Source: Chryseobacterium sp. StRB126
GTDB taxonomy: Bacteria; Bacteroidota; Bacteroidia; Flavobacteriales; Weeksellaceae
Length of the DNA: 64,000 bases
Direction of reading: 5' to 3'
Assembly: GCF_000829375.1 (NCBI RefSeq)
Contig: NZ_AP014624.1
Coordinates: forward strand, 4,402,001 to 4,466,000
The position numbers and the translations under genes were made by a program. The stretch's first letter is position 1, and each line of letters opens with the position of its first letter. The notes beneath the pieces were generated by a model that worked only from the letters and a program-made list of their open reading frames with translations, searched no databases and was not told the origin of the DNA. Positions 1,869 through 5,091 of this stretch are shown in pieces.

Positions 1869-2040
1869 GTATATTTGAAATATTAAACTAGTCAACCTTT
1901 TTCAGGACTAGTCAGGATATTCAGGTTGGAAAACGCGAAGGCGCAATTTTTTTTCCATTTAACGCTTTATAAAGGCGCAAGGATTTTATCTTCGATAAAA
2001 TTGTATACCGCTGAATATTGCCACGAATTATTTTAGATTA

Positions 2041-2107
2041 GACAATTTTCACCAAACTGTCATTCCAACGAAGGAGGAATCTGATTCATTACTAAGATTC
2101 TTCATTT
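2041..2107 (+). repeat. Truncated, diverged copy of the 163-bp MITE-like repeat
   Basis: This segment aligns by eye with the left 65 bp or so of the elements at 59941 and 62353. Shared blocks in the same order are ACAATTTT-x-ACC, TGTCATTC, ACGAAGGA-x-GAATCT, and AGATTCTTCATTT. It lacks a recognisable right half and terminal repeat, so it looks like a decayed remnant. Confidence 0.6.
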
Positions 2108-2248
2108 TGTATCATTGCATTTTCCAACAATCAGTATCAGATAAAAATCGGCGAAATCTCTTAAATCTGAGAGAAAGCATTCCGTATATAATTTTAAACG
2201 CTCGCAAATTATGCTGATGAAGCAGATCTTTGAAAGGTATAAATAAAA

Positions 2249-2276
2249 AAGGCTGCTTTATTTCTAAAACAACCTT
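2249..2276 (-). terminator. Intrinsic terminator after barstar
   Basis: Read on the minus strand, a 12-bp arm beginning AAGGTTGTTTTA pairs (with G-U wobbles) across a GAAA loop to TAAAGCAGCCTT, followed by TTTT. It begins about 20 bp past the barstar stop and would end the archaemetzincin-barstar transcript. Confidence 0.7.
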
Positions 2277-2296
2277 CTTATTTTTCACATTACCAA

Positions 2297-2605
2297 TTAG
2301 TCTTCTGTTTCCTCTTCGTCTTCATCATCTTCATATTGCTCCAGATAATAGCTGAAAGTAAAATCTTCCACTTCTTCCTCTGCATCTTCCAATGTGGTTA
2401 AAAGGTCTTCAAAGATTTCAAGCTGATCTACCGTCATGTTCACGAATTCAATGTGAAGCGGCATTTCAAGGTCACCGGTAATGGTATCGAAAAGCGCATC
2501 GAGGTTATCTCCGAAATGTTCAGGAAGCTGAACTTTTTCTTTTAATTGGGCATAGAAATCCTCATAATCGCCTATGTCTGTAAAATCTATATATACTGTC
2601 TTCAT
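2297..2605 (-). CDS. Barstar-family ribonuclease inhibitor
   Basis: Barstar proteins bind and block barnase-type RNases in the cytoplasm, protecting the producer. The 102-residue protein starts with the beta strand MKTVYIDF and carries the family signature HFGDNLDALFD. Asp36 and Asp40 match the two acidic residues that contact the RNase active site in Bacillus barstar. The last 20 residues are an unusually acidic Glu/Asp tail. Its start overlaps the stop of the archaemetzincin gene by 4 bp (ATGA), so the two are translationally coupled. The likely target is the barnase-like RNase encoded 1.1 kb upstream on the same strand. Confidence 0.88.
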   Translation of the reverse strand: MKTVYIDFTDIGDYEDFYAQLKEKVQLPEHFGDNLDALFDTITGDLEMPLHIEFVNMTVDQLEIFEDLLTTLEDAEEEVEDFTFSYYLEQYEDDEDEEETED

Positions 2606-3222
2606 ATTGAACTAAATTTCCAATTTTTACTGATTAAAAAAGTTTTGCATTTTTTGCAGAAATCCGTTTCCTCATTGGTAGGATTTTTACCTTCTGCATT
2701 TCTCATGAAGCACATTTTTTCCGGGCAATGTGGCAGCCCCTGCGTATGGCCAAGCTCATGAATAGCAATTTTATAAAACTGCTCATCCGAATTTTCTCTG
2801 CTCAGCCTAAAGCTTGAAGCTACACAAGCTTTACCTGGCCTATATCCTAAGCCCATGATTCCAAAATCCTTTATCTTCCCTTTGGTCGCACTGATATCCT
2901 TTGACGTAAGTCCAATGGTAACAAAACCTTCTTGTGTCCTATTGTTTAAAAACTTAATCGTCGAATCGGCTCTGTAGCGGTTTCTTTCCTTATAATAAGC
3001 ATTTTCCGGAAAGTCCATCGCTTCAAGCACCTTAACATTAGGATATACTTTTTTAATTCCCGCAGCTACCATTTCCACTTTTTCAGGTTTTATGTCACTG
3101 AATGGCTGGATCAGGATGGTTACTGCACTTTTTTGTTCCGGCTCTTTCACTGTCATTTTCTTTTCTGAGCATGAGAGTATCAGAAATAAACCTGGTAAGT
3201 AAACAAAACTTTTATTTTTCAA
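2602..3222 (-). CDS. Archaemetzincin-family zinc protease, lipoprotein
   Basis: This 206-residue protein is a predicted metallopeptidase. The metzincin-type motif HELGHTQGLPHC (about 155-166) supplies three zinc His and the catalytic Glu, followed by C-x-M and a C-x2-C pair (189, 192). That Cys-rich tail is the hallmark of archaemetzincins. The N-terminus has a short hydrophobic stretch ending in the lipobox LILSC, so it is probably anchored to a membrane after processing, unlike the cytosolic archaeal members. It is coupled to the downstream barstar gene. The substrate is unknown; a role in processing or limiting the neighbouring RNase is only a guess. Confidence 0.85.
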   Translation of the reverse strand: MKNKSFVYLPGLFLILSCSEKKMTVKEPEQKSAVTILIQPFSDIKPEKVEMVAAGIKKVYPNVKVLEAMDFPENAYYKERNRYRADSTIKFLNNRTQEGFVTIGLTSKDISATKGKIKDFGIMGLGYRPGKACVASSFRLSRENSDEQFYKIAIHELGHTQGLPHCPEKMCFMRNAEGKNPTNEETDFCKKCKTFLISKNWKFSSI

Positions 3223-3285
3223 AATTACTACTTATCCTTATTTAAATGCAAATTATACTCTTCTACTTTTTATACTTCGGGTTTT

Positions 3286-3686
3286 GTCATTGCGAGGAAC
3301 GAAGTGACGAAGCAATCTCAAAAAACATCCATAATACCCTGAATAGTGTTTGGTAGGTCGTCCCATTCAGGATTTATACTATTAATTAAGTTAAGCTTCT
3401 TCTGTCTTGATCCTGCTTTTATTTGTTTTTCTCTGGCAATGGCATCTCCTATTTCCAGAAAACCTTCCCAATACACAAGTATATACAATTTATATCTTGA
3501 TGTAAAACTTTGAGAATAATAGGCTTCTTTATGTTGTTGAACACGTTTAGGCAGATTTGAGGTAACTCCGGTATAAAGAGTTGTATGATTTTTATTGGTC
3601 ATTATGTAAATAAAACCTGCTTTCATCAATCTATAGGGGTTATTGTACTGAAGAGATTGCTTCGTCACCATGCTCCTCGCAATGAC
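3286..3686 (-). mobile_element. GIY-YIG gene bounded by 34-bp inverted repeats (putative mobile unit)
   Basis: The arms at 3286-3319 and 3653-3686 are inverted copies matching at 30 of 34 positions. Each runs from GTCATTGCGAGGA to TGACGAAGCAATCTC, and the 4 differences sit in the centre. They enclose only the GIY-YIG gene and its short leader. The gene's stop codon uses two bases of the left arm. The right arm lies 2 bp from the stop codon of the barnase-like gene. I know similar GTCATTGCGAGG repeats as dispersed elements in many bacteria; treating arms plus gene as one mobile unit is inference from structure. No target duplication is obvious. Confidence 0.72.
3318..3626 (-). CDS. GIY-YIG nuclease-domain protein (COG2827 type)
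   Basis: This 102-residue protein is a single GIY-YIG endonuclease domain, related to small UvrC/YhbQ-like proteins. The start MKAGFIYIM provides the GIY-equivalent strand. LYTGVTSNL is the YIG strand, RVQQH carries the catalytic Arg, and AREKQIKAGSR carries the metal-binding Glu. It ends with NPEWDDL, usual for the family. An upstream in-frame start would run into the right inverted repeat and is rejected. Its stop TGA overlaps the left repeat arm. The name excinuclease subunit C, often attached to such genes, would be misleading. A role in moving the flanking repeats is plausible but unproven. Confidence 0.9.
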   Translation of the reverse strand: MKAGFIYIMTNKNHTTLYTGVTSNLPKRVQQHKEAYYSQSFTSRYKLYILVYWEGFLEIGDAIAREKQIKAGSRQKKLNLINSINPEWDDLPNTIQGIMDVF

Positions 3687-3688
3687 AG

Positions 3689-4204
3689 TCATTGCTTTTC
3701 AAAACTCTTATAATGGTTTTTGGTAAGATAAACATCTCCATTTTTAGTATAAATGATCCGGTCTGCATTTCTTCCACCGCATTGGTAATTGACATCTGCT
3801 TCAAAATATTGATTTCCATCCGGAAGTCTTCCTTCCCTGTTTCCAAATTTGTCACCACCAATAGCTTTTCCAGGAAGTATATCGCAAAGATTTCCCTTGG
3901 AAGGATTCCACCCTTGGCTTCTTGCTTCTTTTTTGGTGATGTAGTAATATGGAAGCTTATGGTTTTGTTTTACATAGCTGATCACTGTTTTTTCTTCAGT
4001 CAGTTTTTCAATAGAAACCTGTGTTGATGAATTTCCGATATTATGCTGATCTTCTATGGAAGCACTTCCATAACTTACATTCTCGGTTTCAGCTGAGGAT
4101 GAATGGTCTTTATCTTTAATGAAATTATTATAGATGTACATCACAGACATTCCGAAAAGAAGGCCAAGACACATAAAAAACACAGCTCTTATTTTACTGT
4201 TCAT
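3689..4204 (-). CDS. Barnase-like extracytoplasmic ribonuclease
   Basis: This 171-residue guanyl-preferring RNase of the barnase (N1/T1) superfamily has an N-terminal signal anchor (about residues 7-27), a low-complexity linker, and a catalytic domain from about residue 65. The barnase active-site set is complete: Lys83 in NHKLP, Arg123 in NREGRLP, Glu135 in FEADVNY, Arg149 in RNADRI, and His164 in KNHYKSF. Two Cys (107, 142) may form a disulfide. The gene ends GAA AAG CAA TGA, two bases before the inverted repeat of the GIY-YIG unit, so that insertion may have set the present C-terminus. The cognate inhibitor is probably the barstar at 2297-2605. Confidence 0.92.
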   Translation of the reverse strand: MNSKIRAVFFMCLGLLFGMSVMYIYNNFIKDKDHSSSAETENVSYGSASIEDQHNIGNSSTQVSIEKLTEEKTVISYVKQNHKLPYYYITKKEARSQGWNPSKGNLCDILPGKAIGGDKFGNREGRLPDGNQYFEADVNYQCGGRNADRIIYTKNGDVYLTKNHYKSFEKQ

Positions 4205-4299
4205 AGTAATGATTATTTAATGTAGCCATATATCAGTCTAGCAATATAACAATGATGAATAACCTGCTATACTGCTAAATGAACACATTATTATACTTA

Positions 4300-5091
4300 T
4301 TATTCTCTCCAGTCTTCAGGAATGTCGCAAACAGGGATAGGATTTATCTTATGTTTTGCTGCCTTATGCATTCTGTCAAAGATCTGGAATACTTCCTTAT
4401 CTCTTCCTTCATAGTCATCAACTGCTTTAGTTCCGTATTCTTTCTGGATTTTTTCCAGTTCCGGATAGGTTGCACCAATCTGCTGTTCATCGGTACGGTC
4501 CACATCCCAAAGTCCGTCTGTAGGAATTGCTTCCTGGATGCTTTTGATAAGATTTAGTCCTTTGGCAAGCTCATATACTTCAGTTTTATAGAGGTCTGCA
4601 ATGGGTGAAACATCTACCCCTCCATCTCCATATTTTGTATAGAACCCGATTCCAAAATCTTCTACTTTATTTCCGGTTCCACAAACCAAAAGCCCGTTCA
4701 GTTGCCCATAATAATAAAGTGTAAGCATTCTAAGACGTGCTCTAGTGTTGGCAAAGGTTAAATTCTCATTAGGATATACCTCACCTTTTACATGAAAGGT
4801 TCTATAGATCTCTTCAAATGCCGGCGTCAGATCTACAGATATTATTTCTACATTTGGAAATCTGGATTTAAGATCATTCATATGGTCCTTCGCACGGTCT
4901 ATCTGGTCAGCTTTCTGGCGAATCGGCATTCCTATCAATAATGTTTTCAAACCGGTCATAGCTGCCAGTGTTGAAACCACTCCGGAATCCACTCCTCCTG
5001 AAACTCCAATTACATATCCGTTTACTCCTGCATTTACTGCATAATCCTTTAACCACTTTACGATATGATCTATCACTTTTTGTGTCTGCAT
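4300..5091 (-). CDS. nadE: NAD(+) synthase, ammonia-dependent
   Basis: This enzyme amidates deamido-NAD to NAD using ATP and ammonia, the last step of NAD synthesis. The 263-residue protein has the PP-loop SGGVDSG at about residues 30-36. Further conserved blocks are NTRARLRM, GTGNKVEDFGIGFYTKYGDGG and DGLWDVDRTDEQQIG. There is no N-terminal glutaminase domain, so it should use free ammonia. The gene precedes an acetyltransferase run on the same strand. In many flavobacteria nadE lies near gldB/gldC, and here they are about 2.3 kb apart and on opposite strands. Confidence 0.93.
   Translation of the reverse strand: MQTQKVIDHIVKWLKDYAVNAGVNGYVIGVSGGVDSGVVSTLAAMTGLKTLLIGMPIRQKADQIDRAKDHMNDLKSRFPNVEIISVDLTPAFEEIYRTFHVKGEVYPNENLTFANTRARLRMLTLYYYGQLNGLLVCGTGNKVEDFGIGFYTKYGDGGVDVSPIADLYKTEVYELAKGLNLIKSIQEAIPTDGLWDVDRTDEQQIGATYPELEKIQKEYGTKAVDDYEGRDKEVFQIFDRMHKAAKHKINPIPVCDIPEDWRE

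Follow-up and report, generated by a model that had tools for sequence, protein, structure and literature searches.

The 403-nt cassette described here, from Chryseobacterium sp. StRB126, probably consists of a small GIY-YIG nuclease gene and, one on each side of it, two outward-pointing, tagged and hairpin-forming repeats for which the nuclease is specific. It lies in the window, a stretch of 64,000 nucleotides of contig NZ_AP014624.1 that was analysed as a whole. The association between gene and repeats is real and general, and stronger than the initial annotation of this DNA had it. Its parts are as follows.

3285..3319, plus strand: repeat arm 1, tag at the outer end (TGTCATTGCGAGG...GACGAAGCAATCTC), at the 3' end of the nuclease gene
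3653..3687, minus strand: repeat arm 2, inverted, with an outward tag, 1 nt away from the stop codon of barnase
3318..3626, minus strand: stand-alone GIY-YIG nuclease gene, 102 aa from the likely start, PF01541, catalytic-type residues kept
3285..3687, no strand: cassette of arm, nuclease gene and arm, 403 nt; the outer tags bound the unit shared by two sites; in relatives the site is empty or the unit decayed
3689..4204, minus strand: barnase-family ribonuclease gene, PF00545, outside the cassette

The initial annotation had described a GIY-YIG gene between inverted repeats at 3286–3686, with a stop codon built partly from one arm and with the other arm abutting the stop codon of the barnase gene, and all of this stands. 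The two arms are 35 nt long, 89% complementary and separated by a spacer of 333 nt. Between them, the open reading frame at 3318–3692 on the minus strand matches PF01541 (3.2e-14); translation likely starts at the ATG at 3624–3626, which gives 102 residues, and the TGA stop (3318–3320) has 2 nt in common with the arm at 3285–3319. The arm at 3653–3687 ends 1 nt from the TGA stop (3689–3691) of the barnase gene, a neighbour that served to locate empty sites in other genomes. Where it falls in open frames (window 3627–3692; locus L313, 555–785), the arm translates as an IARS..TKQS-type peptide, so that automatic annotation may place the nuclease start too early. Searched as a gapped pattern, the arm occurs twice in the window, where shuffles predict 0.00 matches, and 3 times in the whole 5.50-Mb genome, which has 0 matches to the reversed pattern; two of the three flank the window nuclease gene and one is solitary (L005). 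The tag word GTCATTGCGAGG alone, with 2 mismatches allowed, shows no excess over chance. Terminator-like sites number 3 against 1.3 in shuffles, and promoter-like sites 5 against 7.3, which is no excess. A known RNA family at the cassette was rejected, as an Rfam search of window positions 2000–5000 at the gathering score returned no match.

Four PF01541 matches occur in this genome: a UvrC-type gene (L004), which has no such arms, and three stand-alone genes, all three of which lie between inverted repeats. The arm forms at these loci are TGTCATTGCGAGG...GAAGCAATCTC in the window, TGTCATTCT...GAAGAATCTC at L002, where the nuclease gene is intact, and TGTCAGGCTGAGC...CGAAGCCTTTTT at L001, whose gene has an internal stop codon. 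Common to the three families is a design of an outer GTCA tag and complementary stem words, with letters that differ by family. Each of the window arms is tagged with TGTC on the outside (the full tag is TGTC(A)) and has a 5-bp outer stem, ATTGC/GCAAT, a longer imperfect middle and a CTC tail. Since circularity had to be avoided, the arms for a covariation test were chosen by outside anchors and the stem was ignored. All four stem positions are complementary in 146 of 189 distinct arms, compared with a mean of 29 and a highest value of 43 in 1000 shuffles; the stems found include TTCT/AGAA, TTGC/GCAA, TCCT/AGGA, TTCC/GGAA, TGCT/AGCA, CCCT/AGGG and TACT/AGTA. For the window-type arm, 33 of 44 distinct sequences also have complementary inner two pairs, a count that averages 22 in shuffles and reaches 30 at most. 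DNA energy folding, run on six stretches of which that from L101 lay off the arm, is weak for single arms (z of -0.7 and -1.1 for the window arms) and favours a different pairing; the hairpin, if used, is thus probably held by protein or transient.

A relative of the window protein is present in 89 of 118 genomes of the genus, the other 29 having no match at all. Among 92 loci (L001 and L002 from the same genome, the 30 best search matches and 60 picked from the matches listed), the inverted-repeat score between the two flanks exceeds the highest of 92 far-flank controls in 80. A tblastn search of a plasmid collection gave 32 records, 16 of which were analysed, those left out being mostly near-duplicates. 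Inverted repeats score above the locus's own far-flank control in 14 of the 16 and do not do so at the Rhizobium tumorigenes and Photobacterium loci; at two Sinorhizobium loci the arm on one side lies more than 300 nt away, and the Aeromonas copy of the gene is interrupted by a stop codon within the matched stretch. The arms take the form GTCATTCCCGC..GCGGGAAT in Neisseria, CGTCATCCCCGCGAAGGCGGGGATCCA in Azospirillum, CGTCATCCTCGGGCTTGACCCGAGGATCCA in Shinella and Neorhizobium, and CGTCATTCCCGCGCAGGCGGGAATCCA in Aeromonas. Among named genomes, the best 80 of 576 relatives from one scan fall, by record title, into about 20 phylum-level groups, including Cyanobacteria, Chloroflexi, Planctomycetota, Nitrospinae, Clostridia and candidate Buchananbacterium, and 56 of the 77 with enough flank exceed the highest of 64 far-flank controls.

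Orientation was scored with a hairpin detector that looks for GTC plus a 5-nt word whose complement recurs 3–40 nt further on, no more than 250 nt from the gene. Outward tagged hairpins stand on both sides at 58 of the 92 loci from the genus (1 of 92 in far flanks), in 11 of 16 loci from the plasmid collection (1 of 16) and in 46 of 78 named-genome loci from the best 80 of 576 (1 of 63), and on at least one side in 83 of 92, 15 of 16 and 70 of 78, respectively. Hairpins in the wrong orientation are found on both sides in 13 of 92, 4 of 16 and 23 of 78 loci of the same three samples, counts that lie above zero because many neighbourhoods carry repeat dimers. In Azospirillum lipoferum, the nuclease gene with its flanking repeats (L101, 2489–2782) has sufB on one side and sufC on the other.

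Arms and enzymes are matched within single genomes. For 45 loci from genomes with at least two sampled loci, opposite flanks were compared; the arms are closer to those of the nearest enzyme in another genome than to those of another nuclease locus of the same genome in 43 cases, with 2 to the contrary. The Mantel value is 0.57, and the highest of 500 permutations reaches 0.08. The 43 of 45 show co-inheritance of arms and enzyme and are by themselves no proof of recognition. Grouped by flanking genes, the 92 genus loci fall into 14 sites (one-sided links) or 26 (two-sided links), most of them of one arm type; the second largest mixes two types and includes one locus with neither. Window-type arms occur at three sites.

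Arm number likewise goes with the gene. The lineage-A gene (at least 62% identity, broken copies included) is present in 40 of 118 genomes, and all 40 have at least one exact-pattern arm, compared with 39 of the 78 genomes that lack the gene. The median is 5 arms with the gene and 0.5 without it, or 3 versus 0.5 once the gene's own two arms are subtracted (p of 5e-5, with kinship ignored). Five genomes without a lineage-A gene have 9–24 arms each, and window-type copies reach 27 in congeners. The arms are often found at gene ends and between convergent genes, and inverted pairs also occur without a gene, 71–180 nt apart (L304–L308). Some arms are arranged in other ways. Genome G022 holds a same-orientation tandem array of 5 window-type arms spaced 343–366 bp (L311, 860–2330) and G067 one of 3 arms about 380 bp apart (L312, 642–1433), in both cases with one arm per unit and no nuclease ORF in the unit. 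In G061, arms with matching rare middles (CC..GG) lie around a three-gene block (L310, 760 and 3015), and G022 has arms at the same places around the same genes (L313, 5081–7890).

The barnase gene allows the history of one site to be followed, as a relative is present in all 118 genus genomes. With 8 genomes left out for lower-ranked or split matches, script limits sorted 110 loci into classes: an intact nuclease stands at 22 and a broken one or a relic at 7, 8 hold a fused hairpin that is tagged at either end, 8 hold one arm only and 65 show no motif. Barnase loci without the element, which the initial annotation proposed to look for, do exist. At tight empty loci the M54-peptidase gene begins 13 nt before the barnase stop. 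In G052 and G082 the fused hairpins match what would be left if two arms were joined at GCAAT or ATTGC, words repeated in the arm stems, and slippage fits this outcome as well as enzymatic excision does. The cassette at this locus looks old, mostly inherited and repeatedly decayed to footprints, and the window copy is therefore no fresh insertion. Arms, too, can be old, since a solitary arm after a glyoxalase-type gene is in the same place in 23 of 30 loci.

Another site with lineage-A copies, site 2, is flanked by DinB_2 and Sua5/YciO/YrdC genes (Pfam). Between barnase-site and site-2 copies, homology runs from outer tag to outer tag: with arms located in 38 of 40 loci, the left end of homology has a median of -1 nt and the right of +1 nt, and both lie within 6 nt of the tags in 244 of 300 two-site pairs, which are non-independent and may trace to one event. 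In 200 same-site control pairs, homology continues on the left (median -1380 nt), but on the right it, too, often breaks off close to the arm (median +12 nt); mainly the left boundary is therefore informative. Genome G093 has copies at both sites with ends at -1 and 0, and in G075 the barnase copy is intact and a remnant of 265 nt lies at site 2. For the TTCT family the left end is often at the tag; the remaining families are too diverged to show ends, which TTCT does in part. No target duplication was seen by eye in four two-site copies or in site-2 copies; no matched empty allele of a recent insertion turned up, nor, at site 2, any empty allele showing a target duplication. The idea in the initial annotation of a minimal mobile unit thus holds in part: the tag-to-tag unit shared by two sites speaks for it, but the barnase copy is old, inherited and decayed, and the genome has only 3 arms. 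Its likening of the unit to REP/RAYT with another enzyme fold gains from the pairing of lineage and repeat, from a repeat number that goes with the gene and from the two-site, tag-to-tag cassettes.

In the enzyme itself, catalytic-type residues Y7, Y18, H32, E66 and N85 are invariant in 29 sequences, and R28 is nearly so. A structure model of the nuclease (mean pLDDT 94.8) has a single Foldseek match with E below 0.001, to the UPF0213 protein BH0048 (1zg2, E 1.9e-4), at a remote 23% identity; Slx1 and the UvrC N-domain come next, with E above 0.01, and a sequence search of solved structures returned two UPF0213 chains. These proteins share the GIY-YIG fold with the window enzyme, but only remotely, and the UvrC gene of the same genome stands without arms. 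A relative in N. gonorrhoeae is 43% identical over 86 aa, and its gene sits among GTCATTCCCGC repeats. A specific NCBIfam name was rejected, the only match being TIGR01453, a group I intron endonuclease model, weakly in 4 of 15 relatives. Viral elements as the usual carrier were likewise rejected, with 5 relatives in one close-relative scan of viral contigs.

We take the window nuclease to resemble Ssn, reportedly a GIY-YIG family of site-specific single-stranded nucleases described by Chenal, Veyrier and others in Nature Communications in 2025. The enzyme is said to cut single-stranded DNA at a repeat with hundreds of copies in Neisseria, its homologues are reportedly each specific for their own sequence, and in Neisseria it has reportedly been proposed to tune DNA uptake or recombination. 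Ssn is a small stand-alone GIY-YIG protein with catalytic residues, and the window protein has the same features. The enzyme class is probably known already, and the Ssn study may already contain part of the present findings. The initial annotation knew of no system of such a type; that none has been described is probably wrong in part, given this family and a published repeat class, in or beside which the window repeats lie. What we take as new is the tie to orphan CGTC/TGTC repeats, the pairing of one enzyme with one repeat inside single genomes, the tag-to-tag unit common to two sites and the double-tag footprints.

Two superfamilies of REPs, GTAG and CGTC, have been distinguished (Di Nocera et al. 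2013, PMC3733652). The CGTC repeats (also TGTC and CCTC) occur in Proteobacteria, Chlorobi, Bacteroidetes, Spirochaetes and Thermotogae, and the dRS3 repeat of Neisseria is equated with them; according to that paper they have no associated transposase gene, their enzyme having perhaps disappeared, and 'GIY' is absent from its main text. The superfamily is marked by a CGTC or TGTC tag at one end, a stem that starts and ends with AT and head-to-head pairs, as here. Its terminal tag (CGTC, TGTC or CCTC) is present in both window arms, and the arms from Azospirillum, Aeromonas, Shinella and Neisseria show its form. The class has an 8–9-bp stem with AT in first and second position, a loop of 4–5 nt and a tail that is mostly CCA; the Azospirillum and Aeromonas arms agree with this in form, whereas the window arms depart with their 5-bp stem ATTGC/GCAAT, long middle and CTC tail. 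The class also has many dispersed copies, whereas the window arm has only 3 in its own genome and up to 27 in congeners. The window arm is thus a relative of the CGTC superfamily and not a member of CGTC-1 to -4, and the best reading places the repeat and nuclease pair in or beside the CGTC/TGTC-tagged class (PMC3733652). The nuclease is therefore a candidate for the enzyme that this known repeat class was said to be without, and a good one, because similar genes are boxed by matching repeats in many bacterial groups. Among the papers listed by a literature search with incomplete journal coverage, none tied GIY-YIG genes to REP-type repeats and none dealt with GIY-YIG together with dRS3, and those listed for the repeat letters of the arms had unrelated titles.

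A parallel in organization is the REPtron, in which TnpA-REP/RAYT goes with GTAG REPs (PMC8266576). There, as here, a single gene stands among inverted, tagged palindromes with specific pairing and is mostly stationary, and it is bracketed by inverted copies of its own repeat, the abundances of the two being tied. The REPtron enzyme is an HUH tyrosine enzyme and its tag is GTAG, whereas here Pfam and a fold search find only GIY-YIG and the tag is TGTC(A). That paper says that there is no evidence of tnpA-REP moving, whereas in the present case a tag-to-tag unit is common to copies at two sites. An insertion sequence would be expected to bring a known transposase family, whereas the cassette has only GIY-YIG by Pfam.

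In the mechanism that we infer, the enzyme would recognize the TGTC-tagged repeat as single-stranded DNA, exposed during replication or DNA uptake, and would nick beside the tag. If both arms were nicked and then repaired or joined to each other, this would account for rare movement of the cassette, for the spread of solitary and paired arms and for fused double-tag hairpins where the gene is gone; the nuclease gene mostly stays put, as RAYT genes do. A wider proposal, which we hold tentatively and rate below even odds, is that cassettes of about 400 bp with a GIY-YIG single-stranded DNA nuclease and no transposase form a second, independent kind of REPtron in many phyla, moving themselves and their hairpins by nicking at the tag, with enzyme-less CGTC/TGTC repeats as non-autonomous offspring and fused double-tag hairpins as excision scars.

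Several other readings must be weighed against that of a nuclease specific for its bracketing repeats. The cassette might serve the host, a resident nuclease cutting single-stranded DNA at dispersed repeats and so tuning uptake or recombination, with repeats kept by the host and nothing selfish about the cassette. The largely vertical residence at the barnase locus, the stable solitary arm, broken copies that remain in place and the few viral relatives (5 in the one close-relative scan) would all suit such a role. Yet it calls neither for bracketing by the gene's own repeat nor for tag-ended cassettes at different sites, and many genomes lack the gene or have it in broken form (29 of 118 have no match); we consider it rather unlikely, if still credible. 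Alternatively, the nuclease could be irrelevant to the repeats, with the arms acting as transcription ends and the gene carried along or lost by slippage between the direct repeats ATTGC and GCAAT. Such slippage would leave exactly the fused double-tag hairpins found, and the arms are indeed often placed at the ends of genes and between convergent ones; nevertheless, at 43 of 45 loci the type of repeat goes with the lineage of the enzyme and not with the genome, and arm number tracks the gene, which makes this explanation improbable.

A GIY-YIG homing endonuclease, whose gene spreads when the enzyme cuts an empty site and repair copies the gene into it, with the arms as remains of its target, would agree with the stand-alone fold and with the weak matches of 4 of 15 relatives to the group I intron endonuclease model. 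It is nonetheless very improbable, as empty barnase loci mostly lack an intact arm (65 of 110 have no motif) and inverted arms with dispersed counterparts are not expected from homing. That a small gene merely happened to fall between two common intergenic repeats has next to no probability: some genomes are repeat-rich, with up to 27 window-type copies, but this one has only 3, and outward placement on both sides is seen in 58 of 92 loci against 1 of 92 far flanks. Chance was accordingly rejected on window shuffles, the reversed pattern and far-flank controls in the genus and in named genomes (best 80 of 576). The reading that we prefer remains the specific pairing of nuclease and bracketing repeat. 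Since a single lineage of nucleases has matching repeats around its genes in about 20 phylum-level groups (best 80 of 576), the question of the missing CGTC enzyme becomes testable, and this with proteins of 100 residues and oligonucleotides of 35 nt. The natural enzyme–repeat pairs, three of them in this genome, offer a ready table for sequence-specific recognition of single-stranded DNA.

The neighbourhood of the cassette has features of its own. A gene for barstar, the barnase inhibitor (2297–2605, PF01337, 1.4e-19), lies on the far side, so that the cassette stands between barstar and barnase (3689–4204), as does an M54-peptidase gene (2602–3222); in several congeners barnase and barstar are directly adjacent. 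At 547–1868, 1.4 kb from the cassette, are two adjoining ORFs, of which the second encodes an integrase core domain (PF00665); we take the pair to resemble an IS3-type element.
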